Below are positions 1-20,500 of a stretch of DNA of 23,592 nucleotides, piece after piece; positions within the stretch are counted from its first letter, which is position 1; the number at the start of each line of letters is the position of its first letter. Source of the DNA: a virus. A program made the translations under genes and the position numbers. Location: positions 1-23,592 of IMG/VR virus record IMGVR_UViG_3300025652_000564; one strand, written 5' to 3'. Under the pieces are notes generated by a model. The model saw only the letters and a list, made by a program, of their open reading frames with translations, was not told the origin of the DNA and ran no database searches.

Positions 1-625
1 TGTACCACTCATAAGTCTTATCAAAGACTGAGGGATCACCGCTCTGGCCTTCTTGCTCGGAATGGGGGTCATCAATGATTAAAAGGTCAGCACCTTTACC
101 TGTAACTGCACCGCCAACACCAATCGCAAAATACTCGCCCCCACTACCTGTACTCCACCGACCTGCGGCCTTAGAATCAGAGCGTAATGTAGATTGAGGA
201 AATATGGACTTGTAATCATCGCTATCGACAAGGTTACGAACCTTACGGCCAAAGCCTACCGACAACTCAGCAGTGTGTGCTGTTTGGATAACTTTCTTCT
301 CAGGGAACCGACCCAAAAACCATGAGGGCAGTAAGTAAGAAGCAAATTCTGATTTTGTATGACGAGGAGGCATGTTAATGATTAACCGCTTCAACTCACC
401 ATTGGCTACACGTTCAAACGCTCTAGCCATAATCTTGTGATGCCGACCTTCGATGAAGGCAGGCCAAACTCTGTTAGTGAAACCCATGAAGGTGTCTCTG
501 GCTTTATCTTTGGCCTCGGACTCTTCAAGCTCTTCCATTAAGGACAGAATCTCCTTCTGATCCTCAACGGGTAAATTCGGTATCTGTTTTAAAAGATCGG
601 GGTCTATCTTATCGATAAGAGACAA
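1..625 (-). CDS. terL: Terminase large subunit, 3' end outside window
   Basis: This is the ATP-driven DNA packaging motor of a tailed phage, which docks on the portal and pumps DNA into the prohead. About 208 codons are visible, the N-terminal part of the ATPase domain. The Walker A-type loop reads NMPPRHTKSE, the PPRHTKS variant common in phage large terminases. The Walker B strand is ADLLIIDDPHSEQE. The N-terminal stretch HHKIMARAFERVANGELKRL is also typical of the family. The C-terminal nuclease domain lies off the left edge. The start is TTG at 625, because the frame is closed by a TAA just upstream and no ATG or GTG fits. A purine-rich GGGGAAG upstream can serve as ribosome binding site. 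The stop of the 51-aa zinc protein lies 2 nt upstream, so translation is probably coupled. Confidence 0.93.
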   Translation of the reverse strand, partial: MSLIDKIDPDLLKQIPNLPVEDQKEILSLMEELEESEAKDKARDTFMGFTNRVWPAFIEGRHHKIMARAFERVANGELKRLIINMPPRHTKSEFASYLLPSWFLGRFPEKKVIQTAHTAELSVGFGRKVRNLVDSDDYKSIFPQSTLRSDSKAAGRWSTGSGGEYFAIGVGGAVTGKGADLLIIDDPHSEQEGQSGDPSVFDKTYEWY

Positions 626-627
626 GC

Positions 628-783
628 TTATTCTTCCCCGTCTTCTTTAGGTATATAAACCTCTACATAACACCCGCAACTAGAGCAGGAAAGATTGGTT
701 ACCATAGAGAATGCGTCAGACTCATCTTCCAAGTCGTGATCGCCGCCCCAAATCAATTCAGACTTGCAATGCCAGCAATTCAT
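628..783 (-). CDS. 51-aa zinc-ribbon-like protein between terS and terL
   Basis: A small acidic protein with cysteine pairs C3-x2-C6 and C33-x2-C36-G-C38, which look like a single zinc-binding knuckle. Between them lies an acidic, glycine-containing segment (WGGDHDLEDESD). Small proteins of this appearance are frequent in phage genomes next to terminase genes; their function is unknown. An AGG about 9 nt upstream of the ATG is a plausible ribosome binding site. It ends 2 nt before the TTG start of terL. A second protein of the same design is encoded at 17158-17316, sharing the CSSCGC block. The role is unknown; nucleic-acid or protein binding through zinc is only an inference. Confidence 0.8.
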   Translation of the reverse strand: MNCWHCKSELIWGGDHDLEDESDAFSMVTNLSCSSCGCYVEVYIPKEDGEE

Positions 784-834
784 GTTAATAACCTGTTTTT
801 GGCGCACTTTTACTTCAGGCGCAGGGGGTGCAAC

Positions 835-1005
835 AGGAATCTACCTAGTCCGAATAACACCTAGGAATATGCCTGTAGGAATATTACCGCTCGTAACATG
901 TCTCCGTACTAGTAAAAAATAAAACTAAAGGTGACATGCTCAGATAACCGAAACATATGCAGGGGCATATGCCCCGAACAGGAATATTCCTGTATACATA
1001 GGAAT
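835..1005. repeat. Cluster of five AGGAAT repeats
   Basis: AGGAAT occurs at 835-840, 863-868, 877-882, 980-985 and 1000-1005, mostly in the wider form YAGGAATMT. One inverted copy lies at 986-991. The clustering in a non-coding region suggests protein binding sites, such as terminase or replication initiator sites. The binding protein is unknown. Confidence 0.5.
962..993. promoter_or_regulatory. Two adjacent perfect palindromes
   Basis: GGGGCATATGCCCC (962-975) and ACAGGAATATTCCTGT (978-993) are perfect 14-bp and 16-bp palindromes separated by 2 nt. The second incorporates an AGGAAT repeat and its inverted copy. Such symmetry fits dimeric DNA-binding proteins. As an RNA cruciform the loops would be too short, so a DNA site is the likelier reading. 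Confidence 0.55.
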
Positions 1006-1273
1006 CTCTAGATTTTACAGATACTACGCTCTTGACAAAAAAAGGCAACCCTAAACGTCAATTTTTTGCAAAAAATTTTTGGGCGAAAAAAACCCGAAAA
1101 AAAGATTAGCAAATTTTCGGGATTAGTGGGCGCAAAAAGCGAAAAAAATAGTAGTGCTTCAATTTTTCAGAATTGTTTGAGTGTTTCTCTATATATAGTA
1201 AATACAGGTACGTCACGGCCACAGGGGGGGTGGGTACTATCATTTTTGGCCGGTTTTGGCATAGGCACTGCCA

Positions 1274-1762
1274 TTAGTGCAGATTTCCATCGGGGCTGAC
1301 CTCGCCCGAATCCTGCTCCTGCTCCTGACTACCTGACAGCAAGTCACCCAGCCTGCGCTCGATCTCAGCACTGACCGCATCGGAATCCCTGACGCTGGTA
1401 TCTGCTGTCTCTACGCGATCCACGAACACGCCTGCCGATCTGCCTAGCAACTCGATAGCTCTCAGCCTGTTGCTATCTGTTGGCTCTGCTGTGTCGATCA
1501 TCTGCCGAAGTCGCTCCAGCACCCTGTCCCTGTCAGAGAGGCTCTGAGCTTGCCTCTGCACCTCAATACGCCCCTTTATCACCTGAACCCTTGCGGCAAC
1601 CATAGGGTTAGCCAATAGCCTGCTGGACTCACTATGAACCACTGCTGGCTTGCTCCCCTCACAATCATAAACCTCACGATAGCACTGGCTCTGAGTGCCA
1701 GCACCTGATGCCACGCACTGCGAGAATGCCTCCTGCTTTGCCGTCAATTTCCTACCTGCCAT
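1274..1762 (-). CDS. terS: Terminase small subunit
   Basis: The DNA-recognition subunit of the packaging terminase (Terminase_2-like family), 162 aa from the chosen ATG. The N-terminus LTAKQEAFSQCVASGAGTQS, followed by a YREVYD helix and SSRLLANPMVAARV, matches the helix-turn-helix region of this family. The second half is charged and ends in a Q/E/D-rich tail (SGSQEQEQDSGEV), as usual for the oligomerisation and TerL-contact region. The start at 1762 has GGAG 9 nt upstream. An in-frame GTG at 1813 is less likely because it adds residues outside the family pattern. It is transcribed toward terL but separated from it by the 490-nt non-coding region and the 51-aa gene. Confidence 0.85.
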   Translation of the reverse strand: MAGRKLTAKQEAFSQCVASGAGTQSQCYREVYDCEGSKPAVVHSESSRLLANPMVAARVQVIKGRIEVQRQAQSLSDRDRVLERLRQMIDTAEPTDSNRLRAIELLGRSAGVFVDRVETADTSVRDSDAVSAEIERRLGDLLSGSQEQEQDSGEVSPDGNLH

Positions 1763-2159
1763 GTTCGCCAACTCCAATCCGATTTTCCCCCAGCATATCT
1801 GCCCCAAATACACTGGTAAATGGACAGTTAACAGTAAATGCTCGATAGTCCTCAGACCTCCGTAGAGCGTGTCTAATGGACTTTCTCAAAAGCAATAGCG
1901 TGGCCTTGCCTAAATTTTAAGAGCTTAGGAGCAACGTGAGACCCCTTCTCGTTGTTGTGACACCCTTACTGCCTATTGTTTTCATACAGTCAGAACCAGT
2001 GGTTTTATATACAGTAGTTGCTGTAAGTCATTGATATATAAGGAGAAAACACGTTTGAACAAACTATTTAGACCTAAGTCATTGATTTATAAGGGAAATA
2101 AAAATAAATGCAAATAAAGTGAATTATTTTTGAACTTATCAAGAACAGCGTTGACTAAG
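1763..2159. other. AT-rich non-coding region upstream of terS and the plus-strand operon
   Basis: No open frame of gene length is seen on either strand. The region separates the divergent terS and plus-strand operon transcripts, so promoters for both should lie here or in the RNA-rich part that follows. I could not find a good -35/-10 pair with 16-18 nt spacing. It contains the twin 20-bp repeat (2024-2094) and one copy of the ACTTRTYAAG motif (2134-2147). Confidence 0.55.
2024..2094 (+). repeat. Twin 20-bp direct repeat, promoter candidate
   Basis: TAAGTCATTGATATATAAGG at 2024-2043 and the same sequence with one change (ATTTATAAGG) at 2075-2094; start-to-start distance is 51 bp. Both copies continue with purine-rich GAGAAA or GAAATA. 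The length, near-identity and position ahead of the plus-strand operon fit either phage-specific promoters or a regulator's tandem operator. No RNA polymerase gene is visible in the window. Confidence 0.5.
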
Positions 2160-2160
2160 T

Positions 2161-2541
2161 AATACGCGGCAAGGAAGTCGCCTGTTTCAAAACGCTGGTC
2201 AGCGAAAGCATCAAGGCTCCACCGATGCGAGTAGGGAGGCCACCTCGGAAGATCGAGGCGCTCGGCTCTGATGTCATCATGACTAGCCCGTTACGCGATA
2301 CACACCTGATGCCCTGACAGCGGGGACAAGCAGTAGCAGGACGGATGACGAAAGCTCTGGCGAGTATGCAACCTCCTACTATTTATACGGCAAACGCAAG
2401 CATAGGCCGCAGAGTGGCGGCCTCTCATCTGAGTATCAGATGCCGATGGAGCGGTGAGCAATTAGCCAAGGTCAGCAAAATCTGACGATGTCACCCTGAG
2501 TATCGGGTGGTCATCACCAAGGCCGCAGAGTGTGCGGCTTT
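2161..2541 (+). ncRNA. Candidate structured RNA / long structured 5' leader
   Basis: About 380 nt, richer in G+C than the flanking DNA, with many local helices and no good gene. Helices seen: GCATC/GATGC (2208-2228), CCTCG/CGAGG (2243-2258), GGCCGC/GCGGCC (2405-2422), CATCTGA/TCAGATG (2426-2442), GTCAG/CTGAC (2471-2486), CACCC..GA/TC..GGGTG (2492-2509) and a 9-bp helix at 2519-2541. A long-range pairing GTAGG(g)AGG (2231-2239) with CCTCCTAC (2372-2379) could close a multibranch domain. The word GGCCGCAGAGTG occurs twice (2405, 2521), and two hairpins share the apex GAGTATC with different but pairing stems. No known RNA family was recognised. A 46-codon open frame from 2345 overlaps the hairpins and is probably chance. 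Confidence 0.5.
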
Positions 2542-2574
2542 AGTAATGATCATTTAATTACGAGGCAATTAATC

Positions 2575-2700
2575 ATGTATGACGATATCACTTTTCAAAC
2601 CTACAGAATCGCTGGACGATTCTTCAATCAATACCCGCCAGCCTTGTTGGCAATGTGGGCTTTCGTGGCAACCGCCACTTACCTTTCAATCGGAGCATAA
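2575..2700 (+). CDS. 41-aa small membrane protein
   Basis: A 41-codon frame from ATG 2575 with GAGG 9 nt upstream. The product has a polar N-terminus (MYDDITFQTYRIAGRF) and a hydrophobic C-terminal segment from about residue 23 to the end (ALLAMWAFVATATYLSIGA), long enough to span the membrane. It would be a tail-anchored inner-membrane peptide. The next gene starts 4 nt after the stop, with its own GGAG inside this frame's end. A longer frame from 2579 runs through this region in another phase, but its first 42 codons look like a shadow. The function is unknown. Confidence 0.6.
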   Translation: MYDDITFQTYRIAGRFFNQYPPALLAMWAFVATATYLSIGA

Positions 2701-2704
2701 GCAC

Positions 2705-3241
2705 ATGAGCATATTCGCAAGCAAGTACCAATTAATTCGCATCTGGGGTCAAGAACTTGGGTCATTCGGTTATTTCATCGAAAACGAACAGGCCAAAGCA
2801 GAGGCTGACAACGCGCCTCTGGAGGCGATCTATCAGCGTGACGGCCACTGGTTCACCATTCATGATGTGAACAATAAGAATGTCAGGCGCACAGTACTAG
2901 GCAAACTGCTGGAGTATTACGCTTACCACGAAACTGCTGACAAGCGTGACGCTTGGGAGAAGGCCAAGCCAAAGGTCATTGTGATTGATCGCCAGCGTCC
3001 AGCTCAGATCGAGATCGCCAAACAGTTTGTAAATCAGCACAGATATTCAGTTGATGCTTGGACTGCCAAGATCGAACGCCCCACAACGTCAGATGACGAG
3101 GCGTATCACAAAATATACTTCAGCTTAATTGGTGGCGAGTATGGCGAGGTCACCTGCATTGACGATGGCGAGTACGAGATAGAGATAGGCAGTTCAGACT
3201 CCTATAGCGGCCACCCAGTACTATTCACTTTTCAAATCTAG
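2705..3241 (+). CDS. Hypothetical protein, 178 aa
   Basis: I do not recognise this protein. The ATG at 2705 has GGAG (2692-2695) at a 9-nt spacing and begins MSIFASKYQLIRIWG. The product is soluble, rich in aromatic and charged residues, with no signal peptide, membrane segment or cysteine pair. Its last 40 residues are acidic (EVTCIDDGEYEIEIGSSD). The stop codon TAG (3239-3241) forms part of stem I of the hammerhead ribozyme that follows, so the 3' end of this mRNA would be set by ribozyme cleavage 49 nt downstream. Confidence 0.75.
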   Translation: MSIFASKYQLIRIWGQELGSFGYFIENEQAKAEADNAPLEAIYQRDGHWFTIHDVNNKNVRRTVLGKLLEYYAYHETADKRDAWEKAKPKVIVIDRQRPAQIEIAKQFVNQHRYSVDAWTAKIERPTTSDDEAYHKIYFSLIGGEYGEVTCIDDGEYEIEIGSSDSYSGHPVLFTFQI

Positions 3242-3296
3242 CCACTGATGAGGCCACAGGCGTGGCCGAAACGCGCTGAGGTTGCGCGTCTGGTAG
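3238..3296 (+). ncRNA. Type I hammerhead ribozyme, copy 1
   Basis: All conserved hammerhead parts are present in order. Stem I 5' strand CTA(G)CCA is at 3238-3244. Core CTGATGA is at 3245-3251. Stem II GGCCAC/GTGGCC (3252-3257, 3262-3267) has an AGGC loop. GAAA is at 3268-3271. Stem III ACGCGC/GCGCGT (3271-3276, 3284-3289) has a 7-nt loop. The GUC triplet ends at C3290, followed by stem I 3' strand TGGTAG (3291-3296). Cleavage is predicted between 3290 and 3291. Stem I is the open stem, so this is type I; one G is bulged in stem I. It sits between the 178-aa and 60-aa genes and uses the upstream stop codon in its own stem. Confidence 0.87.
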
Positions 3297-3338
3297 CCAA
3301 TTCATTAATCACTAACTAACTAAAAGTGGACAATAATC

Positions 3339-3521
3339 ATGAACATTAACAAATTAGACAGCGCCTTATGCGATATGTATGACATCAAAAGAGCCTTGAG
3401 CAAGGAAACCATGCAACTACCAAAAGATAATGATGGGACTGAAATAACCATCAGCGATTGCATCGATGACGTTATCGATTTTCTTGAAGGCTTAGAAATT
3501 AACGTGGAGGACGAATCATGA
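3339..3521 (+). CDS. Hypothetical acidic protein, 60 aa
   Basis: A small acidic protein, MNINKLDSALCDMYDIKRAL..., ending in EGLEINVEDES. It is probably helical at both ends, with no recognised domain. The ribosome binding site is weak (AGTGGA about 10 nt upstream). Its stop overlaps the ATG of the next gene (ATGA, 3518-3521), so the two are translationally coupled. Hammerhead cleavage at 3290/3291 would place it first on a new mRNA with a 5'-hydroxyl end and a 48-nt leader. The function is unknown. Confidence 0.7.
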   Translation: MNINKLDSALCDMYDIKRALSKETMQLPKDNDGTEITISDCIDDVIDFLEGLEINVEDES

Positions 3522-3688
3522 GTATAGCAGAACGCAACGAACGGGCTTTGGAGTACCTTGCCCAAAAGCATTACGAACGATCCTCAGCGAGAGCGAAGCT
3601 AACACTGACAATCATAGGTCTGGCCTATGGCGGGGTGATGGCCTATCTGATGGGTCTGATGCTGGCACTCGCAATACAGGGTGCATAA
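3518..3688 (+). CDS. 56-aa small membrane protein
   Basis: A 56-codon frame overlapping the preceding gene by ATGA, with GGAGG (3506-3510) as ribosome binding site. The first 28 residues are charged and helical (MSIAERNERALEYLAQKHYE...). They are followed by a long hydrophobic segment, about residues 29-54 (LTLTIIGLAYGGVMAYLMGL...), predicted to span the membrane. Topology would be N-terminus in the cytoplasm by the positive-inside rule. It resembles the 41-aa protein at 2575 only in architecture. The second hammerhead begins directly after its stop. Its function is unknown; a holin-like or membrane-anchoring role cannot be decided from sequence. Confidence 0.72.
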   Translation: MSIAERNERALEYLAQKHYERSSARAKLTLTIIGLAYGGVMAYLMGLMLALAIQGA

Positions 3689-3748
3689 CTCTACTGATGA
3701 TGGCCGCAGGGGTGTGGCCGAAACGCGATTAGGTGATCGCGTCTGGAG
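3689..3748 (+). ncRNA. Type I hammerhead ribozyme, copy 2
   Basis: Same architecture as copy 1. Stem I CTCTA (3689-3693) pairs with TGGAG (3744-3748), including one G-U pair. Core CTGATGA is at 3694-3700. Stem II GGCCGC/GTGGCC (3702-3707, 3714-3719) has an AGGGGT loop. GAAA is at 3720-3723. Stem III ACGCGAT/ATCGCGT (3723-3729, 3736-3742) has a TAGGTG loop, and the GUC triplet ends at C3743. Cleavage is predicted between 3743 and 3744. Stems I and III differ from copy 1 but still pair, which supports structure over chance repetition. The odd point is one extra U (3701) between the core and stem II, which could slow the ribozyme. Confidence 0.8.
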
Positions 3749-3823
3749 ACCCAATGAACTTTTCACTATGCCTGTTGTCAATATGTAAATGGGCATTACT
3801 TCTAACCACTCAGGAATATGATT

Positions 3824-4009
3824 ATGCAAATATTTGTCGAACAAAAATCAGTCTATGGGGCTGACAAGATTTACCCCGTCTGCCCGAAGGCCGCTATGTT
3901 TGCGGCTATCGCTGGCACTACCACCTTGACCCCCGCCACTGTCAAATTGATACAGGCACTGGGTGTCGAGATCGCTCTCAAACCAGTTACTCTGAAGGAG
4001 TTATTATGA
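3824..4009 (+). CDS. Hypothetical protein, 61 aa
   Basis: Product MQIFVEQKSVYGADKIYPVC... continues with a helical stretch AAMFAAIAGTTTLTPATVKL and ends in VTLKELL. It is soluble and compact, with no catalytic motif recognised. The second in-frame ATG (3824) is preferred, because AGGA (3812-3815) lies 8 nt from it and only 2 nt from the ATG at 3818. It is the first gene after ribozyme copy 2 and overlaps the 333-aa gene by ATGA (4006-4009). So it belongs to the AAA+/VWA cassette and may be a small partner of it. Confidence 0.72.
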   Translation: MQIFVEQKSVYGADKIYPVCPKAAMFAAIAGTTTLTPATVKLIQALGVEIALKPVTLKELL

Positions 4010-5007
4010 ATCTTATAGGCCAGAATCAGGCATCGATCAACGAACGTGCCTGTAACAATCTAATGACTATCGGTGTCACCATCTCAGGATTCGGTGGCTT
4101 CAAATCACTTATCTCAGCGGTCACCAAGCTTCAGAAGTCTAGCCGTATCGCCTCTGAGCGTCAGCGTCTAGCCCAGATAATTGCTGAGTTAACGCCATTC
4201 CAGAAGCCTTTTGACGAGGTCAAGGCCGCGCAGTCATTGCTACGCACCTATCTGTACAACAAGACCTTGTCGCTATCCACAGCGCAGGAAGGCCAGCAAA
4301 AGAAGGGTGACCGCGCAGTGTTCACATCCGAAGTGCCAGAAGTGTACAACCATCTCAAGAATCTTGAGGCCAGCGCAGATGATGCGGCACTGGCTCTGGG
4401 TGACCGCTGGGAGGCCATGCGTGACGATGTTATCGATGTTGTGCGCGAGTTGGAGATCAGCGTTGATGACCTGCTGACAATGTCAGGCCATGACGTTGCC
4501 CGTAAGTTTGTCACCACTGTCGGCACTCCCCAGACCCTCCATGTCAATGATGTCTCAGGCATGGCACTACCTGCCTCGCTGATCGAGCGCATTGATCAGG
4601 AGTCTCAGGATCAACTTACCAAGATGCTGGAAGGTGCTAAGGCTCAGGCCATTACCGACACTCTGGAGCATATGGACTTGCTGGTGACCCAGCTTACCAG
4701 CGGCTCTCGCTTGTCTCCCAGCCTGATCGAACACGCCAAGACGCACAGCACAAAGCTACGCGGCATGGCACTGTCCTATGACAATGACCCTCGACTGATC
4801 GCCATGTGCGACTCAATTGACGAGAGCATTGTCAACCAGACCACCGACAACTGGAAGTCTGACAACACAGCGCGTGAGGCATCTCTTGAGACGGCCATAA
4901 ACGTCAAAAAGAACCTTGCCGAGCTTACCAAGCCTGTCAGTACTGAACGAATTTCATACGCTGATGTCCAGCTAGCGGGTGGTTTGCTGGATGACCTGAT
5001 CGACTAA
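4006..5007 (+). CDS. 333-aa helical protein of the AAA+/VWA cassette (DUF3150-like, tentative)
   Basis: A mostly helical, acidic protein of 333 aa without cysteine clusters or membrane segments. Its N-terminal part (GFGGFKSLISAVTKLQKSSR, then QRLAQIIAELTPFQKPFDEV) and long charged helices suggest a coiled or helical-bundle fold. It has a strong AAGGAG site and ATGA coupling to the 61-aa gene. It is followed by the AAA+ ATPase after 26 nt. Proteins of about this size, annotated DUF3150-like, are known next to MoxR-type ATPases and VWA proteins in phages and plasmids. I assign this on gene order and general appearance, not on a motif I can verify. A substrate-adaptor or scaffold role is inference. 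Confidence 0.6.
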   Translation: MNLIGQNQASINERACNNLMTIGVTISGFGGFKSLISAVTKLQKSSRIASERQRLAQIIAELTPFQKPFDEVKAAQSLLRTYLYNKTLSLSTAQEGQQKKGDRAVFTSEVPEVYNHLKNLEASADDAALALGDRWEAMRDDVIDVVRELEISVDDLLTMSGHDVARKFVTTVGTPQTLHVNDVSGMALPASLIERIDQESQDQLTKMLEGAKAQAITDTLEHMDLLVTQLTSGSRLSPSLIEHAKTHSTKLRGMALSYDNDPRLIAMCDSIDESIVNQTTDNWKSDNTAREASLETAINVKKNLAELTKPVSTERISYADVQLAGGLLDDLID

Positions 5008-5033
5008 CTCTTAACTTATCAAGGAATAATATT

Positions 5034-6140
5034 ATGTCACACACTAAAACTACTCTCAAAGAGATGGAGCAAATGCTCCCCATCATTTTCGCCACGCCAT
5101 TCGTTCAGCCCTTTATGTTGCTGGGCGGTACTGGTACTGGTAAATCCCAATGGATCAGCACTGTTGTTCGCAGTGCCTTTGCTGAGTCTGTCGGCCTTAT
5201 CGCTGACGACATCGGCATGGTGACTCTGCGCGTCAGTCAATGTGATGCTCAGGAGCTTGCTGGTGTTGCACTGCCAGCCAAGGGTGACGATGGTCACCTG
5301 ATCACCCAGTACACCAAGTCACCTGTCGTGCAGATGGTCGAGAAGACTGGCAAAGAGCATGGCATCTTGTTCTATGATGAGGTTGCTCAGGCCACCAACG
5401 ATGTTCAGAAGGCTCTGGCCGATTCGTTTGATCGATCCGAGCATAGCATTGGCGGCTGGGATTTGCCGCAGGGCTGGGTGGTCATCGGTGCTGGCAACCG
5501 CACTACTGACAAGTCAGGAGCTAATCGCTTGCTGGCTCACCTGACTGACCGAGTGACAATATTTGAGGTCGAGTCTGATGTTCAAGGCTGGGCAAACTGG
5601 GCATTGGAGAACGATGTTCACCCGCTCATCATCGGTTGCGCGTTGCAGTATGAAGAGCAGGGCTTCTTTGCTGATGGCGTTCCTGCTACCTATGAGCAGT
5701 ATTGCTCCTTCAGGTCTGCCACCTACGCCAGCAATCACCTGACGGCCTTTCTCGATATCAATGGTCAAGACGCGCCCATCACTGGTGTGATCGCCAAGCT
5801 TATCGAGGCCAACATCGGTGTAGGTGCTACCGCCATGCTGTCGCAGTATGCAGATGAGCGCGGCAAAGTGCCTACTGGCAATGACATTCAGGCTGATCCG
5901 CTGGGTGCGCTTATCCCCGATGGCACTGGTCACCAGCTTCTAGCGGCCAACAATGCTCTGGCATCATCGGTTGACTCGCTCACCGCTGACAACGCATTCG
6001 CGTACATTCAGCGACTGCCACGCGCTGATCTCAAAGTGACAATGTCGCGCAGACTTCAGGCAATCATGACCACCAACGGCTGGGTAACCAACAGCGATGT
6101 GGTATCTCAATTCAACGCCAAAAATGCAGAGGTGCTGTAA
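5034..6140 (+). CDS. MoxR/CobS-like AAA+ ATPase
   Basis: A 368-aa AAA+ ATPase of the MoxR group, which includes the CobS subunit of cobalt chelatase. Walker A is GGTGTGKS (residues 31-38). Walker B is ILFYDEVAQA (about 111-120). A sensor-1-like segment VVIGAGNRTTDKSGANR follows at about 150-166, then LLAHLTDRVTIFEVE with the arginine-finger position. MoxR ATPases act as oligomeric chaperones that remodel or activate a client together with a VWA partner, and here that partner is encoded immediately downstream, overlapping at TAATG. The ribosome binding site AAGGA is 8 nt upstream. The client in the phage is unknown. The name cobS, often given to phage homologues, would overstate function. Confidence 0.88.
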   Translation: MSHTKTTLKEMEQMLPIIFATPFVQPFMLLGGTGTGKSQWISTVVRSAFAESVGLIADDIGMVTLRVSQCDAQELAGVALPAKGDDGHLITQYTKSPVVQMVEKTGKEHGILFYDEVAQATNDVQKALADSFDRSEHSIGGWDLPQGWVVIGAGNRTTDKSGANRLLAHLTDRVTIFEVESDVQGWANWALENDVHPLIIGCALQYEEQGFFADGVPATYEQYCSFRSATYASNHLTAFLDINGQDAPITGVIAKLIEANIGVGATAMLSQYADERGKVPTGNDIQADPLGALIPDGTGHQLLAANNALASSVDSLTADNAFAYIQRLPRADLKVTMSRRLQAIMTTNGWVTNSDVVSQFNAKNAEVL

Positions 6141-7651
6141 TGGCTAATTTCAATGCAAAGCAACTATTCACTTGCGAGAATCCTGACATGGTCAGGTCTC
6201 GCATGGTAATCGCCACGATGCAGATCATGCAGGCAAAGGTGCGAGTTCACTACACCCTGCTGATGAATACCAAGCTGATCTGGACTTCTCGCATCCCAAC
6301 AGCCGCCACTGACGGCTACTATGTCTATGTGAATGAGCAGTTCTTTCGCTCGTTGCCGAACGACAATCAACGCGCTTTTCTCTTTGCTCATGAGGTGTCG
6401 CACATAATCCTGCAACACCCACAGCGCGGCAAAGCCTATATGGATCGCGGCTATGTCAGGACTGTCGGCAACAGCAAGATTCCTTTCAATCCGCACTTCT
6501 ACAACTGTGACGCTGATGCAGTGATCAACGCTGACCTGATTGCTATGGGTCTGGAGATGATACCTGCTGGCATCCTACGCAATGATGTTGACCGCAATAT
6601 GTTTGTTGATGACATCTATCTGGCGCGTGATTGGAATCAACCTGAACAGCCCGAACAGCCTGAGCCTGACAATGGTGATGACGATGGCGATCAGGGTGGC
6701 TCAGATGGTCAGTCTGATGACCAGCCTACGGATGATGCCGATCAGCCCAGTGATGATGGCGATGATCAGCAGGGCAACGATGATGCTGGCGGTGCTGGCG
6801 GTGATGATGACTCTTCTGATCAACCTGTTGACGATAGCGATCCGCTCGATGGCGCGACTTCCGAAGGTCATGATACTCACCTTGTTCCTCAGTATGATGG
6901 CGATAGTGATGAAGACATTGTCGATCAGATCAAAGCTGATGTCGAATCTGTCGAGCGTGTGATCGATCAGGCTCTGGATGATCTGGTTCGTGCCGAAGAC
7001 AATGAGGGCCACAAGCAGGTCAATACTTCCGAGAGTATTGCTCAGAGCGGTGGCAGAGTCAGGGCTATCAACGCATCCAGTGTTGACTGGCGATCTGCTC
7101 TGGCTGACCGCGCTACTGCGATGTCGGCTGGCGAAGAGTCTAGCTGGAAGCGCATCAATCGCAGACGACTGGTGAACACTGGTGTTATCAGCCCTTCCAA
7201 GATCGGCACGTTCAATCGCATCGGTATCACTGTGGACACTAGCTGGTCTTGTATGCGATACGAGTCAACTGTCAGCGCGTTCTTCAATGAGGCCGCGTCA
7301 TTGATCGACACCCTTGCCCCTCGCTCTGGCGCGGTGCTAGTGCAGTGTGGCGAGTCTGTGCGTCAGGTTGATGAGCCTATGTCTGGCTCTGAGTTCTTGG
7401 ACGTTGATGTCTCTATGGGTGGCGGTACTTATATGGCGGCATCTGTCGAGTGGATGGAAGCTAATGGTGTTGACTGCGATATCCACTTGATCTTCACTGA
7501 TGGTGAGATGTGCTGGGAGGATTACAACGTCTGTGCAGAATCTGGTGCGATACTGATTCTGGTCAAGCACCCTGACTTCTGGACTCGCAAGATGATCGAT
7601 GAGTCTGGTATCGATTACATCGTGGCAAGTGATGACCCCCTTGCCGCATAA
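6140..7651 (+). CDS. HExxH metallopeptidase-like + VWA domain protein (CobT-like)
   Basis: A 503-aa protein in three parts. Residues about 1-165 are a DUF2201-type N-terminal putative metallopeptidase domain with H84-E-V-S-H88 (FAHEVSHIILQHP). Residues about 167-255 are a very acidic D/G/Q/P linker, as in CobT. The C-terminal part is a VWA-like domain with a MIDAS motif D366-T-S-W-S370, and DIHLIFTDGEMCW further on. The family pairs with MoxR-type ATPases; the ATPase gene overlaps it by one base. The HExxH motif suggests zinc binding, but proteolytic activity of this family is unproven. The stop is followed by a hairpin and T-rich sequence at 7658-7680. Function in the phage cycle is unknown. 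Confidence 0.87.
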   Translation: MANFNAKQLFTCENPDMVRSRMVIATMQIMQAKVRVHYTLLMNTKLIWTSRIPTAATDGYYVYVNEQFFRSLPNDNQRAFLFAHEVSHIILQHPQRGKAYMDRGYVRTVGNSKIPFNPHFYNCDADAVINADLIAMGLEMIPAGILRNDVDRNMFVDDIYLARDWNQPEQPEQPEPDNGDDDGDQGGSDGQSDDQPTDDADQPSDDGDDQQGNDDAGGAGGDDDSSDQPVDDSDPLDGATSEGHDTHLVPQYDGDSDEDIVDQIKADVESVERVIDQALDDLVRAEDNEGHKQVNTSESIAQSGGRVRAINASSVDWRSALADRATAMSAGEESSWKRINRRRLVNTGVISPSKIGTFNRIGITVDTSWSCMRYESTVSAFFNEAASLIDTLAPRSGAVLVQCGESVRQVDEPMSGSEFLDVDVSMGGGTYMAASVEWMEANGVDCDIHLIFTDGEMCWEDYNVCAESGAILILVKHPDFWTRKMIDESGIDYIVASDDPLAA

Positions 7652-7657
7652 CTTGAC

Positions 7658-7680
7658 GGGGCGGGAACGCCCCTTTACTT
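7658..7680 (+). terminator. Possible weak terminator after the VWA gene
   Basis: GGGGCG (7658-7663), GGAA tetraloop, CGCCCC (7668-7673), then TTTACTTTT. The stem is perfect with a stable GNRA loop, but the T run is interrupted, so termination may be partial. It begins 7 nt after the stop of the VWA gene. Confidence 0.6.
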
Positions 7681-7704
7681 TTAACTTGTTAAGGATTAAT
7701 TATT

Positions 7705-8063: not shown

Positions 8064-8288
8064 ATGATACTGATGACTGTAAAAGACAATGACTGCGATG
8101 GCCGAAACGACATCAAGGATATTCGTGTTGAGGGCGCAACTGATGATGAGTTGTTGTACTCAATAGGCGTGTTGACGTTTATCGCTAAGGACTTAGGTCA
8201 CCCATTCGTTGCTGGGCAATTAGCTCAAGCTGAAGACGCGCTGAAATCAATCATTATCAATGGATATCCAGCCGAGGGCTTGTCATGA
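8064..8288 (+). CDS. Hypothetical protein, 74 aa
   Basis: Strong AGGAGAAG ribosome binding site just before ATG 8064. The product begins with a charged, D/N-rich segment (DNDCDGRNDIKDIRVEG) and continues with a helical half (IGVLTFIAKDLGHPFVAGQL). No known domain was recognised. Its stop overlaps the start of the 147-aa gene by ATGA, indicating coupled translation. Confidence 0.72.
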   Translation: MILMTVKDNDCDGRNDIKDIRVEGATDDELLYSIGVLTFIAKDLGHPFVAGQLAQAEDALKSIIINGYPAEGLS

Positions 8289-8808: not shown

Positions 8809-8834
8809 ATTCTTATTTGTGACCTGTTAAGAAT
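8809..8834 (-). terminator. Inverted repeat at the end of the recombination operon
   Basis: ATTCTTA (8809-8815) and TAAGAAT (8828-8834) form a perfect 7-bp AT-rich stem with a 12-nt loop, just after the stop of the last minus-strand gene (8839). There is no T run in the minus direction, so it is a weak terminator or a 3'-end protecting hairpin at best. One arm belongs to the dispersed ACTTRTYAAG-type motif. Confidence 0.35.
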
Positions 8835-8838
8835 AAGA

Positions 8839-9607: not shown

Positions 9608-9655
9608 AATATTTTTCCTAGTAGATAATGTTTTATGGCGCGTCTTATATATGTA

Positions 9656-9715
9656 ACAAGTTAAGAATAATGTGACCATTCCCGGTAGGTTTTAGCTATT
9701 AACTTATCAACAACT
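9656..9715. promoter_or_regulatory. Two copies of the ACTTRTYAAG-type motif
   Basis: ACAAGTTAAGAATA (9656-9669) and ACTTATCAACAACT (9702-9715) lie in the 261-nt gap upstream of the 90-aa gene. The first contains TAAC-AA-GTTA inverted halves. Similar sequences occur at 2134, 5014, 7684 and 8822. They are candidate regulator sites; two of the other copies double as ribosome binding sites, so the family may be of mixed origin. A 28-codon open frame in this gap was not counted as a gene. Confidence 0.35.
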
Positions 9716-9868
9716 AACGTGCGGTGGACGAAATAATTGGGCGTATGTATAAGGTTACCTTTTTGACCTTGGCGGTCACCACTACATTACCTCTTAGCAT
9801 TTGCGCCTGTACAAGGCTAGGAATAGGTCAGGATGCCACCGCTCACCCTACCTTAAATACCGCCTCGA

Positions 9869-10210: not shown

Positions 10211-10427
10211 CTTTCTTGACCTTCCAAACCCTGATGGAGCCATCCTCCAGCGTCCTCACCACCACACGGCAGTTTTTGTCGCTGTATCGAATGTGTGCAG
10301 ATATCTTCTGCTTCTCCTTATCGTCAGTGACAAGAATGCTATCTCCGTACTCCATCTCGTATACAAAAGCATATTTGCCTTTTCTGCCTCTGCGGCTAGG
10401 GATGGGGATGTTCTTTTCAATCTTCAT
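10203..10427 (-). CDS. Small hypothetical protein, 74 aa (IPIPSRRGRKGKY type)
   Basis: The N-terminus MKIEKNIPIPSRRGRKGKYA is followed by MEYGDSILV and a C-terminal RVVVRTLEDGSIRVWKVKK. This is a widespread small phage protein pattern (DUF7303-like): basic IPxP leader, an EVGDS-type turn, then a final RVWR/K strand. A DNA-contact role would fit the basic composition but is not shown. The protein at 13571-13894 has the same signature. It overlaps its neighbours on both sides by a few bases, within the recombination operon. Confidence 0.75.
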   Translation of the reverse strand: MKIEKNIPIPSRRGRKGKYAFVYEMEYGDSILVTDDKEKQKISAHIRYSDKNCRVVVRTLEDGSIRVWKVKKDD

Positions 10428-10870
10428 TTCGACAACCTCTCTATTTCAGCGTCAATATAGAACCTTATCTTCTTCGCATCGCGGAGTTTGTCGCTGTGAG
10501 AAGACTCCCCGTACCTGTAACAGCTTCTGAATATTTCCCCGATCTGGGCGTTCATGTCCTTTTTAGATATAAGGTGCTGAAGTTCAGTCGCACCCTTGGG
10601 AAGCTCATAGTAGGCGGCTGTTGAACCATCACTTTTGCTGGGCGCAAGACGTACCTTTTTGGGCGCAAGACGTACCTTTTTGGGCGCAAGACGTACCTTT
10701 TTGCGCTTTTTGTAAACCCTTCGCTTGATCAACTCGCCTAAAACTGTGTAGACATATCCCTCGCTAGAGCCAGTCGCTTTGGCAACATGCTTCGCCTTTG
10801 AGTCTGGATAGCTTTTAAAGTAGTCTCTAATTTCTTCAGCGGTGCTTTTTTTCTTTGCTAATTTAATCAT
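10424..10870 (-). CDS. Winged-helix DNA-binding protein with KKVRLAP repeats
   Basis: Residues about 9-50 (STAEEIRDYFKSYPDSKAKH then VAKATGSSEGYVYTVLGELI) form a helix-turn-helix or winged-helix domain. It is followed by a highly basic arm made of three KKVRLAP copies, encoded by a 21-bp tandem repeat at 10640-10702. The C-terminal third is helical. This suggests a sequence-specific DNA-binding regulator or replication-region binding protein with a basic arm. It has AGGAG before the ATG and overlaps the next gene by ATGA. The target is unknown, but it is a candidate binder of the operator-like sites in this window. Confidence 0.72.
   Translation of the reverse strand: MIKLAKKKSTAEEIRDYFKSYPDSKAKHVAKATGSSEGYVYTVLGELIKRRVYKKRKKVRLAPKKVRLAPKKVRLAPSKSDGSTAAYYELPKGATELQHLISKKDMNAQIGEIFRSCYRYGESSHSDKLRDAKKIRFYIDAEIERLSK
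10640..10702. repeat. Three perfect 21-bp tandem repeats inside a gene
   Basis: Units 10640-10660, 10661-10681 and 10682-10702 are identical (each begins GGGCGCAAGACG) and in frame, giving three KKVRLAP heptads. Perfect identity at synonymous positions indicates a recent expansion, and copy number may vary between isolates. Confidence 0.95.
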
Positions 10871-14606: not shown

Positions 14607-16367
14607 ATGGAAAATAATGACTACGCTCACATCTTTGGCAATGTTTTTGATGATTGCCGAATAAACTGCCCAGAGTGCGGTGATACAAGAAAAAAGAAAA
14701 ACCAGAAAACATTAAGTGTAACTATCGAGGGCAACGACTGCCTCTATTACTGCCATCACTGTCACATATCAGGAAGATGGAAGAGGCCAGATTTATATCA
14801 AAAGCCTGAGCCAGTCCCCCAAAAGGTAAGAGCAATCAGCGTACCAGTGGCAAGCGATCAAAGCCTAATCTCTAACTACTTAGAATCAAGATCAATCAAC
14901 CCAGAATCCGTTGCAGACTTTCAGATTGTCTCTGGCCGAAAATACTTTCATGGCGCGGGTGAATTGCCAGCTATCGGCTTCGTGTATGGCGATAAAGAGG
15001 CTGTTAAGTGGCGATCAATGGAAGGCAAACACTTCACTCAGGATGGCGCGGCACGAACGCTATGGGGCATTGAGGCTCTATCTGAGGATGCAAAGCAGTT
15101 GGTTATCTGCGAGGGTGAGACAGATAGGCTTGCCTTGGCAAGTAGTGGGGTGTTTGATAGCGTATCTGTACCGAATGGCGCACCACAAAAGGTTTCTGGA
15201 AAGAAGGTTGATCCAGAAGAAGACGGCAAGTTCTCCTACGTCTGGGATGCGCGTGAGCAGATTGAGAAGGTAGAGAAGATAATACTAGCGTGTGACGATG
15301 ATGAAGCTGGCTTCGCATTGGCTGAGGAGCTTGCTAGGAGGATTGGACGCGCCAAGTGCTGGACTCTGAGCTACCCAGAAGGGTGTAACGACATCAATGA
15401 TGTCCTTAAAGCTCATGGGGAGGAAGCTGTACAGAATCTTGTACGGGACGCTGTGCCTGTGCCGCTTGAGGGCATATATAGTGCAGATGACTACACCAAA
15501 GACATTGATCACCTCTACACAGACGGCATTGTTGGTGGTGCTTCAACAGGTATTGCGAGCGTTGACCAGTTGTTCACTGTTGTTACTGGGCAGTTAACAG
15601 TAGTGACAGGAATCCCCGGTTCTGGCAAATCAGAATTTATTGATCAAATTATGGTCAACCTAGCCAAGCGTGATGAATGGAAGTTTGCCATTGCGTCTTT
15701 CGAGAATCCTCCTCCTCTCCATATTGCCAAGCTGTCTGAAAAGTATATTGGTAAGCCCTTCTTTGATGGCAACACGCCAAAGATGGCCGAGGAAGAAAAG
15801 AACGATGCCATGAAGTGGATTAACGAACACTTCTTATTCCTCGAACAACGAGGGGGTGAGTCTGCAACGATAGACAGTATACTCGACAGGGCTAAACAGG
15901 CTGTTATGCGTCTGGGTGTCAGAGGTCTTGTTATTGACCCATATAACTATATAGCGCAGTCATCAGGTCAGGACAACGAACACAAGGGCATCAACGATAT
16001 GCTCACTAGGCTGGTTGTGTTTGCCAGAGCGCACGATGTGCATATCTGGTTTATCGCTCATCCAGCCAAAATGATGACCGATCAGCATGGACTTACCCCA
16101 GTACCTAAAGGGATGAACATCTCAGGCTCTGCCGCTTTCTTCGCTAAGGCAGATATAGGTCTAACAGTGCATCTCGATAAGGATAAGAATGTAGAGATAC
16201 ATTGCTGGAAGTGTCGGTTCAAGTGGGTAGGTGGCACTGGCGTTGTAAACCTTGATTACGACATCCCAACTGGCCGCTACTCTGATGTCGAGTATGAAGA
16301 ATTTGTACCAGAAGCAATCAATCACAAACCAGACTGGCAGGAGAGTGATGATGACTGGGAGTTCTGA
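14607..16367 (+). CDS. T7 gp4-like DNA primase-helicase
   Basis: 586 aa, unwinding the replication fork and laying RNA primers. Domains in order: a zinc-binding domain with C21-x2-C24 and C49-x2-C52; a TOPRIM primase domain with E169-G-E-T-D173 and D230-D-D232; and a RecA-like hexameric helicase domain with Walker A GIPGSGKS (335-342) and Walker B LVIDPYN (D444). The length and arrangement agree with T7 gp4-like proteins. AAAGGA lies 7 nt upstream of ATG. It is encoded in the operon with RusA and a nuclease. No DNA polymerase gene is in this window, so replication uses one encoded elsewhere. Confidence 0.94.
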   Translation: MENNDYAHIFGNVFDDCRINCPECGDTRKKKNQKTLSVTIEGNDCLYYCHHCHISGRWKRPDLYQKPEPVPQKVRAISVPVASDQSLISNYLESRSINPESVADFQIVSGRKYFHGAGELPAIGFVYGDKEAVKWRSMEGKHFTQDGAARTLWGIEALSEDAKQLVICEGETDRLALASSGVFDSVSVPNGAPQKVSGKKVDPEEDGKFSYVWDAREQIEKVEKIILACDDDEAGFALAEELARRIGRAKCWTLSYPEGCNDINDVLKAHGEEAVQNLVRDAVPVPLEGIYSADDYTKDIDHLYTDGIVGGASTGIASVDQLFTVVTGQLTVVTGIPGSGKSEFIDQIMVNLAKRDEWKFAIASFENPPPLHIAKLSEKYIGKPFFDGNTPKMAEEEKNDAMKWINEHFLFLEQRGGESATIDSILDRAKQAVMRLGVRGLVIDPYNYIAQSSGQDNEHKGINDMLTRLVVFARAHDVHIWFIAHPAKMMTDQHGLTPVPKGMNISGSAAFFAKADIGLTVHLDKDKNVEIHCWKCRFKWVGGTGVVNLDYDIPTGRYSDVEYEEFVPEAINHKPDWQESDDDWEF

Positions 16368-16797
16368 TGCTCAAATAAATGACATGGGAACGCCTTCACT
16401 GCATCAAAGGCACAGGACTGCCCTTGAGCCTTCGGAGGGTTCTTTTTTAAGGGTCAGGGTAACCGATCAGCTATTTATCGATAAGCTACTCTTAAAGAAA
16501 ACTATTACTATGGATCAACACTACACAGCGGAATGGATACTTTCCCAAGCTGTCAGAGCGAACGTGTACCTGAAGACCCCGTCAATGGATTCTGGGTTTT
16601 CAGGTGGCAAGGCAAAGGACAAGTATAGTAACAACCTGCTGATATTCTCTAGGACGCTGAAAAGGATCATAACTAAATTTGGTTACAGCGGAGAGAACTT
16701 GGTGTTTGATCTTATTGTTAACAACTTAGAAGTAAAGGATGAGCAAAAAATCAAAAAACTCATCGAGATACTTAATTACATGGGACAGAAGGCATGA
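16351..16797 (+). CDS. Hypothetical protein, 148 aa
   Basis: Starts inside the last codons of the primase-helicase with AGGAGA (16339-16344) 6 nt before ATG 16351 (ATG 16348 is the alternative), so translation is coupled. The sequence DMGTPSLHQRHRTALEPSEG and then VRVTDQLFIDKLLLKKTITM is of a type seen in small phage proteins; helices follow. No catalytic motif was found. A hairpin with six T inside the 5' part of the frame (16426-16448) looks like a terminator but is translated here. The end overlaps the nuclease start by ATGA. Confidence 0.72.
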   Translation: MTGSSDAQINDMGTPSLHQRHRTALEPSEGSFLRVRVTDQLFIDKLLLKKTITMDQHYTAEWILSQAVRANVYLKTPSMDSGFSGGKAKDKYSNNLLIFSRTLKRIITKFGYSGENLVFDLIVNNLEVKDEQKIKKLIEILNYMGQKA

Positions 16798-17594: not shown

Positions 17595-20500
17595 CTAGTC
17601 CCTATATAGCCCACCAACAGCAGGTAGCTTGGCTGGGCTATTAAGCGCCTCTTTCAACACTGGCACTTGCTTCAAGTATTCTGACCTCGCTTGCTCGATC
17701 TCTCTAATGATTTCCGCTTTCCGCTCTGGCGTGATATCTTCTGCCGTTTGAATTGCTTCTATCTGCCTCCTGCTCGTCTTCAGAAGACCGTCAAGGTAGT
17801 TAACATTACCTGCCAATCCAACTATATGCTCTCTACCCTTCAGGTATTTCTGGTACTGATCTACCTTTCCGTCACCAATAAGCGAGTTGAGAGTGCCTAC
17901 TGTGCGCTTAACTTCTGACCGAATATCATAGTAATCATCCATATTTTTACGCCCAAACTCAGAGCCTAAGAATCTTTTCAGGAATGGCGCTCTGTCTAGA
18001 GTCATAGATGCAAGCTGATCAGAACCTTCAACCTTCAGAGGATTGTCCCCGCCAAGAAGGTCGGGAGTTCTCAGTATCGTATCAAGAGCATTTAACGCAT
18101 AAATTCCAAGAGTCCCAGAGTATCCTTGCATGACATGGTCTATCTTGATTGGGCTTATGTTAAGGCTTTCACCCAACATAATAGCCATCTGACTTGATCC
18201 TACTCTCTGCCTGAATCCTTTTTCAAGGTTGTTTTCATTCATGAATACAGACTCCACAGGCTTGCCTGTAAAGAAGTTGTAGTTCAGGGACGCTTCGATG
18301 ATTGGCGCAACAAACTGTGCGCCCAACGGATTAATCTCTAGGGTGCTTGTCACTCCCCTGACAGTAGAGTCAACGGCTTCTTTCATCGTTGTCTTATCTC
18401 TACCCTCAAGACCAAGAACGTCTTCGACAAAGTTTGTTTCCTTGTTAGCTACCCCCAGTATTCTTTCAGGAAGAGTCTTAAATATTAATCCAACCTCAAA
18501 GGGGATTGGTAGCATTAGCGGATACTTATCGCTAAAGGGGTTAGGTAGGATAAAGTTGTTGTCTCTCTCAAACTCAGATCGCTCTTTGTACTGATCGTCA
18601 TCGCTGACCATTAGCCAATATGCCGCAGACAGTCCTGTTAGCATTAAGCCTCTGAACATAAAGTTACGGGTCTGCTCTGCCTTAGACTTATCCTTGTTGG
18701 CGTTATATCGGCCTCTTGATGATCTCCAAAGAACATCCAAGCCTTGGAATCTTGCATTAAGGAATGGAATTGCCGCTGTAACCACGCGAGCTAGCGAGCT
18801 ACTCCCTCTTCTTGAGAAGTTAATAACCTCAAGAGCCTGAAAAGCCGCTTCTGCTTCGTTACCAGTTCGCGCCAAAACGTCATCGTAAACAGATTTTCTT
18901 GTTGCCGCATCAGACTGTGTAGTCTTCTGACCAAGAAAGTCCCACATCCTAACGAATGGGTTAATTCCCAGCCCATTTCGCTTTTTTACTTCCTTGCTGA
19001 ACTCACCATATATGTCTTTCGGGTCATTGCCAAAGTCATAGCCGCCAACAACACCGTACTGCTCAAGAAGGTCTGCGCCAGAATTAAAGTTCTTTAGCGT
19101 GTCCACTACTGGGGTAAAGTTAGCCCCACTTGTTACGAACGTAGATAGAGTATCTCGCATCATGTTGACGACCATGAATGCTGGGTCTCTTGTTATTAAC
19201 TCTCTAAGAACAGTAGATGGTACGCCGACAATGTTTGTTAGAATCGTTTCTATTTCGCCAGACCCCATACCCTGCATGGACTCATAGATAAGAGGATCGC
19301 TTATAGAAAACTTACGGTTTTTCCCGTTGACTCTGAATGCGATAACATTTTGAGCCTTCATGTCACCTTTGACTTCGTATCCCAAGCCGACCTTAACCAT
19401 GTCTCTGACAATACGTTGCTGGGCTACGTTCCTCATACCCATATGAATGGCGGCATTTAGATTTCTGGTGACAGCTTCAAGAAGAGGGACATTTACAGCA
19501 GTGTCTCCTCCTTTCAGTGCTTTAAAGTTGGCCGCGCTCGTCATGCCAGTGAACACAGGAGGCATTTGACTGCCACCTTCTTCCTCTAACTGACGATAGA
19601 AAGGAACATAGTCAGACTGATCAGCCCAAACCTGCGCGGTCTCAGCATCCAGTACGCCAGTATCTCTAAGGAACTGAATGGTCTTGGCGTTGTAGGCTTG
19701 CCACGCGCTGTACCATTCCTGAATGATTGGCTGACCAGTTTCTGGGTTAGTGTACTTGGCGATCTCGGCTTCAAGAACTGCAAGTGACTTAGCGCCAGCA
19801 GGGGTTTCTTTACCCTCTTTCGCAAGCCTTTGAGACCTAACCGCAACAGCGTATGCTTGAGCTAACTCCTCAAGGTTTACGTTATAGTTGTTCTGAACCA
19901 GAGGAGCCATAACATCTATAAGGCCGCGATACTCTTTGCCGTTGTGAACAAACTTCTCAACTTTTGTAATGCCGTTATTATATGTAACGACACCACCCTT
20001 GATGGCCGCGCTTGAAACGCCTTGCGCCCTGTCGGCAAATAATGCCGCCGCCATCGCGCTTGCGTCAGCGAGAACATCCCTAAACCCAAGGTTGGGGTCG
20101 GTGTAGACTTGTTCTAGTCGAGCGTACTTGTTGATCGCTTTCTGCTTGAACCTTGTTAACATCTCACGAATAGAGCTTTGGTTGCTCGCCTCCAGATAAA
20201 CTTCTCTGGCGGTTTTGTCGGGCGCGGTGGAGTTAACTAGGCTACCGATCTCTGCTTGAGCTTCAGGGGAATACTCTGGCGATCTTGATCGAGAGTACAT
20301 GCCCTCATCAAGAATCTTGGAGCCTTTCTCTGGGTTCTGAGCAACATACTGGGCGCGAGGCTCTGCCTTGACGCTGTATAAAGGTATTGACGTAGCTGTA
20401 GTCGCTTCGGCATCGACAATGTTCTTCTCGACAACCGCTTCGATAGCTTCTTCTGGAATGGTGGTGATGTTATCTCTAGGCGTGGAGCCTTTAGATAAGA

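Follow-up and report, generated by a model that had tools for sequence, protein, structure and literature searches.

The window, a 23,592-nucleotide stretch of viral DNA (IMG/VR record IMGVR_UViG_3300025652_000564, positions 1 to 23,592), contains two type I hammerhead ribozymes, each of which probably cuts a polycistronic phage transcript directly after a stop codon. The first ribozyme (3241–3294, plus strand) was read from the sequence and matched by R1, a covariance model built in this study; the second (3689–3748, same strand) lies 449 bp downstream of the first and is matched by this model as well. The preliminary description of this DNA did not contain the second copy, the pseudoknot between loop II and the 3′ tail, or the membership in a large phage family that is mostly anchored to stop codons and not detected by Rfam. 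The two copies are new members of a known hammerhead class; hammerheads in phages and the idea that they process mRNA are already known.

The first ribozyme is preceded by an open reading frame (ORF) of 178 amino acids (2705–3241, plus strand), for which no Pfam or PHROG match was found. The stop codon of this ORF, TAG at 3239–3241, overlaps helix I. The RNA at 3239–3299 consists of the stop codon UAG and CCA, followed by CUGAUGA, GGCCAC, AGGC, GUGGCC, GAAA, CGCGC, UGAGGUU, GCGCG and UC and, behind the predicted cut, by UGGUAGCCA. Helix I is formed by 3241–3244 and 3291–3294 on the plus strand (pairs G·U, C-G, C-G and A-U) and can be extended by pairing U3239/A3240 with U3294/A3295, given a bulged G3241. 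The core CUGAUGA occupies 3245–3251, with G8 at G3250 and A9 at A3251, and A9 runs without insertion into the 6-bp helix II (GGCCAC/GUGGCC, 3252–3257/3262–3267, loop AGGC). It is followed by GAAA at 3268–3271 and by the 6-bp helix III, which comprises the pair A3271-U3289 and CGCGC/GCGCG at 3272–3276/3284–3288. The GGC of loop II (3259–3261) is complementary to the GCC of the 3′ tail (3296–3298), its pseudoknot partner. C17 is C3290, and hammerhead chemistry (GUC/U) places the self-cleavage site between 3290 and 3291; the cut would leave a 2′,3′-cyclic phosphate on C3290 and a 5′-OH on U3291. The preliminary description had proposed a complete type I hammerhead between two phage genes, with CUGAUGA, a 6-bp stem II, GAAA, a 6-bp stem III, a GUC triplet and a stem I that includes the upstream stop codon. 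The parts from CUGAUGA to GUC are all found in this order at 3245–3290, helix I is open and begins within the stop codon, and relatives covary in the fold; the length of the upstream gene, the positions of G8 and A9 and the predicted cleavage site agree as well.

The next ATG (3339) lies 97 nt behind the 178-aa ORF and opens a 60-aa ORF (3339–3521, plus strand), which overlaps a 56-aa ORF (3518–3688, plus strand). The stop codon of the latter, TAA at 3686–3688, abuts helix I of the second ribozyme (3689–3693/3744–3748). This copy contains the core at 3694–3700, an extra U at 3701, helix II at 3702–3708/3713–3719, GAAA at 3720–3723 and helix III at 3723–3730/3735–3742, all on the plus strand. 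Its C17 is 3743, so that cleavage is predicted from the sequence between 3743 and 3744. Loop II (GGGG, 3709–3712) has its pseudoknot partner in the tail CCC at 3750–3752, and the z-score of the fold is −3.3. An extra nucleotide between A9 and helix II, nearly always U, is also found in L013, L023, L035, L045, L046, L089 and L242, which are loci of the same family. It might slow the second ribozyme; the plus-strand hammerhead of CChMVd has an extra A at the same junction, yet it is active. In both window copies the helices are paired along their whole length, and C3, U4, G5, A6, N7, G8 and A9, G12, A13 and A14, the A15.1-U16.1 pair and H17 are all present; helix I is open and helices II and III are closed by loops, which defines type I. 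Helix I is short in both (4–5 bp), which counts against the cleavage reading. When a 681-nt region was folded with long-range pairing allowed, helix I of the first ribozyme was absent from the minimum-energy structure, and helices II and III were present.

No match in the window was obtained with cmscan and Rfam at the gathering threshold. The catalytic core of the window copies is common to RF00008 (type III), RF02276 (type II), RF02275 (HH9) and RF03152 (RAGATH-1), and none of these models reaches its gathering score; the best sub-threshold hammerhead match was RAGATH-1-hammerhead with 16.3 bits. Some sub-threshold matches to snoRNA models were weak and were judged to be due to chance. Nine hammerhead-bearing phage loci likewise gave no Rfam match at the gathering threshold. 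Since the hammerhead of phage PaP3 also falls below the thresholds, the Rfam miss reflects the reach of the models and not the class of the element. The model R1 was built from 35 diverse hammerheads of IMG/VR contigs, with the window and its relative L003 left out. It matches the first ribozyme at 3236–3304 with 55.5 bits (E = 3.2e-16) and the second at 3685–3757 with 46.8 bits (E = 2.5e-13), and it gave one stray match among 60 bacterial genomes. Thus, the covariance-model match anticipated in the preliminary description was obtained with R1 and with no Rfam model at its gathering threshold. The view taken there that a chance origin is very unlikely is borne out by these scores and by the core pattern with TCTGG, which matches the window twice against 0.03 matches expected by shuffling. 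A structural scan of 1.6 Mb of reversed sequences gave no match. The family is invisible to present Rfam models, and R1 recovers its members with high specificity; because the Rfam models do not detect it, phage annotation misses this hammerhead family systematically.

Several further candidates were set aside. A third core-like match at position 8070 of the window has no helices, scores 9 bits with R1 and was rejected. When named phages were searched by BLAST with the ribozyme, only short partial matches resulted, which were dismissed. A stricter pattern (CTGATGA with CGCG arms) had no match in IMG/VR, because the relatives contain CUGACGA or other arms. Type III look-alikes in L013, L042 and L057 are weak and doubtful and were left uncounted. 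In a pattern scan of genome contigs, only L089 passes the structural scan among the at least 80 loci listed.

The fold of the family is supported by covariation. In the alignment of 35 sequences, changes on both sides were found in 16 of 20 pairs, and all helices covary. Paired cells amount to 88.8%, against 71.4% after shuffling, and the covariation score is 0.431 against 0.136; the signal falls away when the partners are slid by one column. One of the four covarying helices is the pseudoknot between loop II and the tail located 3′ of helix I. Its pairs vary across the family (UGGC/GCCA, which is also the pair of L003, UGAC/GUCA, UGAU/AUCA and others). At least three Watson-Crick loop/tail pairs are possible in 51 of 69 distinct pairs, whereas permutation of the tails gave 27.8 ± 3.3 with a maximum of 40 in 2000; related sequences are not independent, so that the covariation and pseudoknot figures are not strict probabilities. 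As the search pattern prescribed letters in some of the 3′ strands, these counts are held down rather than inflated. Each window copy has three Watson-Crick pseudoknot pairs (3259–3261/3296–3298, and the GGG of 3709–3712 with 3750–3752), and the complementarity of loop II and the 3′ tail accounts for the tertiary contact between helices I and II. The covariation of helices and pseudoknot implies selection on the fold and not on the sequence, which argues that catalysis itself would have been kept.

Among the closest known systems is the hammerhead of PaP3 (NC_004466, 44027–44115, minus strand), which is the sole R1 match in that genome (40.3 bits). It is presumably the active intergenic hammerhead described by Perreault et al. 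in 2011 (PMC3088659). Like the window copies, it has the core CUGAUGA, GAAA and GUC, a loop II (UGAUU) that can form a pseudoknot with the tail (AAUCA) and a start close to a stop codon, 6 nt behind that of orf67. It differs in its longer helix III and its unrelated gene neighborhood, and one copy was found. R1 gave no match on Bcep176, whose hammerhead carries an A6C change in the core (PMC3088659). In the prophage clusters of Agrobacterium tumefaciens, Azorhizobium caulinodans and Clostridium scindens (PMC3088659), several hammerheads surround single genes or short blocks, and stems I and II form a pseudoknot as in the window family; these arrays belong to other phages and involve other genes. 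The window shares with them the presence of more than one coding-strand copy flanking single genes. Hammerheads of the tandem arrays cleave both in vitro and in E. coli, and the splitting of long phage transcripts by hammerheads was proposed in 2011 (PMC3088659). The occurrence of hammerheads in some phage genomes, to which the preliminary description referred, is known.

In 59 of 93 distinct copies of the family, an ORF of 45 or more codons ends with its stop codon 2–8 nt before C3, mostly 4–6 nt; 2.6 such cases are expected. The stop codons were counted on the upstream side, which the search pattern left untouched. The UGA inside the core serves as a stop codon in 26 cases against 15.8 expected under a CTGA-matched null. 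Core-UGA stops had first been counted as evidence and were dropped because of this mild enrichment; the stop-codon register therefore rests on the upstream class. The compactness of phage genomes alone could place any intergenic element beside a stop codon. Behind the cleavage site, 85 of the 93 copies have a start codon with a Shine-Dalgarno-like sequence at a median distance of 32 nt; the first window ribozyme is among the eight for which the scan found no such start. Neither stop codons nor translation are mentioned in the main text of PMC3088659, and neither the register nor the synteny with an ATPase gene was found in the literature searched, which consisted mostly of papers accessible without subscription.

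This ATPase gene encodes a MoxR-like AAA ATPase (5034–6140) and is followed by its partner gene for a DUF2201/VWA-type protein (6140–7651) and preceded by a 333-aa gene (4006–5007) conserved downstream of hammerheads in close relatives; all three are on the plus strand. Relatives were gathered as 80 loci by their primase-helicase and without any hammerhead criterion; several are near-duplicates, so that counts are not independent events. With this proviso, a hammerhead is present in 26 of the 80 loci. The hammerheads recur 0.1–2.1 kb upstream of the ATPase gene, even where ATPase identity is only about 25%. Of the loci with at least 2.5 kb of DNA upstream of the ATPase gene, 12 of 22 have a hammerhead and 10 have no match (near-duplicates included). 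A relative with 74% primase identity (L206) has two hammerheads 421 bp apart in the same place as the window pair; other relatives also have pairs, and many have a single copy. As judged from these comparisons, the ribozymes flank a small island of rapidly exchanged genes that precedes a conserved operon.

The A+T-rich repeat TTAACTTrTyAAGGAwTAA, which contains the Shine-Dalgarno-like AAGGA, occurs at 5005–5029, just upstream of the ATPase start, and at 7675–7699, with weaker copies at 8814–8836, 9648–9670 and 9693–9717 (0.01 matches expected at three mismatches). It is possibly a shared leader or a phage promoter. A 21-nt unit, TGGGCGCAAGACGTACCTTTT, occurs three times in tandem at 10639–10706 within a minus-strand ORF (10424–10870), where it encodes a 7-residue protein repeat. 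The primase-helicase (15530–16719; 12275–12996 in L003) is oriented relative to the ATPase/333-aa block in the opposite way to L003 and other relatives, which may be due to an inversion of the replication module or to an assembly artefact. An open-ended gene at 17595–23591 on the minus strand encodes a large polyvalent protein; its product is at least 1998 aa long and contains LPD38, Zeta_toxin-like/AAA_33 kinase and ASCH domains.

Judged by sequence matches, the hammerhead family is widespread in IMG/VR phages, and in some contigs it is present in many copies. The contig L066 (IMGVR_UViG_3300031999_000054) contains 14 type I copies detected by R1 and four type II copies detected by the structural scan, all in its first 7.4 kb. 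From 223 to 6071, each gene whose start is clear has a hammerhead 0–11 nt from its stop codon, with the exception of one overlapping gene pair, in which one type II copy serves both genes; nearly all genes across about 6 kb thus have a hammerhead of type I or type II at their end. The helix II of the type I copies is almost invariant, whereas the helix III sequences differ yet keep their pairing. The type II copies (3062–3119, 4337–4396, 5410–5468 and 5733–5790) begin exactly at gene stop codons, have the order GAAA, helix III, UC, helix I, CUGACGA and helix II, and alternate with type I copies. Seven copies per contig were found in G002, G003 and G017. The contig L089, from a Clostridia metagenome-assembled genome of sheep duodenum, has four type I copies at 239, 1644, 3403 and 6393, within about 6 kb, and is probably a prophage of gut Clostridia; the whole genome gives eight R1 matches.

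We propose that the window copies act on a long transcript in the following way. The proposal is built on the fold, core, covariation, pseudoknot, gene strand, stop-codon position and recurrence upstream of the ATPase operon, as read from sequence and comparison. RNA polymerase would transcribe through both elements. As long as a ribosome is terminating at the adjoining stop codon, helix I and the core would be hidden beneath it; each ribozyme would therefore fold and cut after this ribosome has left, and the loop II/tail pairing would speed folding. Cleavage between 3290 and 3291 and between 3743 and 3744 would give the upstream message a 3′ end with a 2′,3′-cyclic phosphate at the base of helix III. 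Having no single-stranded tail, this end should resist 3′ exonucleases. The downstream messages, one with the 60-aa and 56-aa ORFs and one with the 333-aa/ATPase/DUF2201-VWA operon, would begin with a 5′-OH leader, which would escape decay pathways that sense 5′ phosphates. In this way the ribozymes would break up the long RNA into short mRNAs, each with a lifetime of its own.

An alternative is that the hammerheads are active and have little regulatory role, being selfish or neutral passengers or short blocks of homology for the recombination of small genes at the module boundaries of a fast-swapping island. The comparison with L003, which is closest in gene content among the relatives found (53% identity for the 333-aa protein), fits this view. 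Its hammerhead is 91.5% identical to 3238–3308 of the window over 71 nt, above the longer coding matches (63–77%). The genes upstream of the hammerhead are unrelated in the two phages, and the L003 protein with 45% identity to the C-terminal half of the 178-aa product is encoded on the opposite side, downstream of the hammerhead. Likewise, a 123-aa gene is located 3′ of the L003 hammerhead and its counterpart 5′ of the L206 hammerheads. The small genes flanking the window copies have almost no homologues in the relatives; for the 60-aa ORF none was found among the 80 loci or in L003. The phage also encodes a Sak-type annealing protein. Against this, helices and pseudoknot covary, as expected under selection for the fold rather than for sequence, helix III varies between the L066 copies with its pairing kept, and a recombination linker would not require a stop-codon register this tight. 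We regard this alternative as unlikely.

It is very unlikely that the pair serves to excise a 453-nt RNA (3291–3743) with the 60-aa and 56-aa ORFs, circularized by an RtcB-like or another ligase. The close same-strand spacing in the window and in L206, the pairs in other relatives and the predicted 5′-OH and 2′,3′-cyclic phosphate ends would suit such a circle, but many relatives are single-copy, no ligase was found among the window genes tested, and a hammerhead at nearly every gene in one phage fits punctuation of the mRNA better. Moreover, Perreault et al. looked for RNA products that were spliced or circular, without success (PMC3088659). Stop-adjacent hairpins that act as terminators or 3′-end stabilizers around an inactive or decayed core are highly improbable. 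In favor of them, helices II and III form even when the minimum-energy fold is computed in long context. Against them speak the conservation of every core nucleotide, the retained cleavage triplet and the covariation of helix I and the pseudoknot; in addition, there is no U-run behind the copies, and the scan for terminators found nothing at these positions. Chance resemblance, for which only the missing Rfam match speaks, can be dismissed in view of the E-values that an independent model gives (3e-16 and 2.5e-13), the two copies, the family and the covariation.

Cleavage behind stop codons thus remains the preferred reading for the two window copies. More tentatively, and short of an even expectation, stop-codon-anchored hammerheads may represent a general phage mRNA punctuation. 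Helix I would begin at the stop codon, the terminating ribosome would gate cleavage, and no terminators, promoters or host RNases would be needed to give each gene its own 3′ end and 5′-OH leader; type I and type II copies would be interchangeable, and the position upstream of the MoxR-ATPase operon would be kept across deeply diverged phages. These broader regularities are more interesting than the two window copies themselves. A 2017 review (PMC6155905) treats the purpose of prokaryotic and phage hammerheads as an open question. The rules found here, a start at the stop codon, pairing of loop II with the tail and the retention of one copy ahead of one and the same operon among distant phages, make this purpose testable, as they predict exact 5′-OH and cyclic-phosphate ends in the RNA of infected cells and a dependence on translation of the upstream gene.
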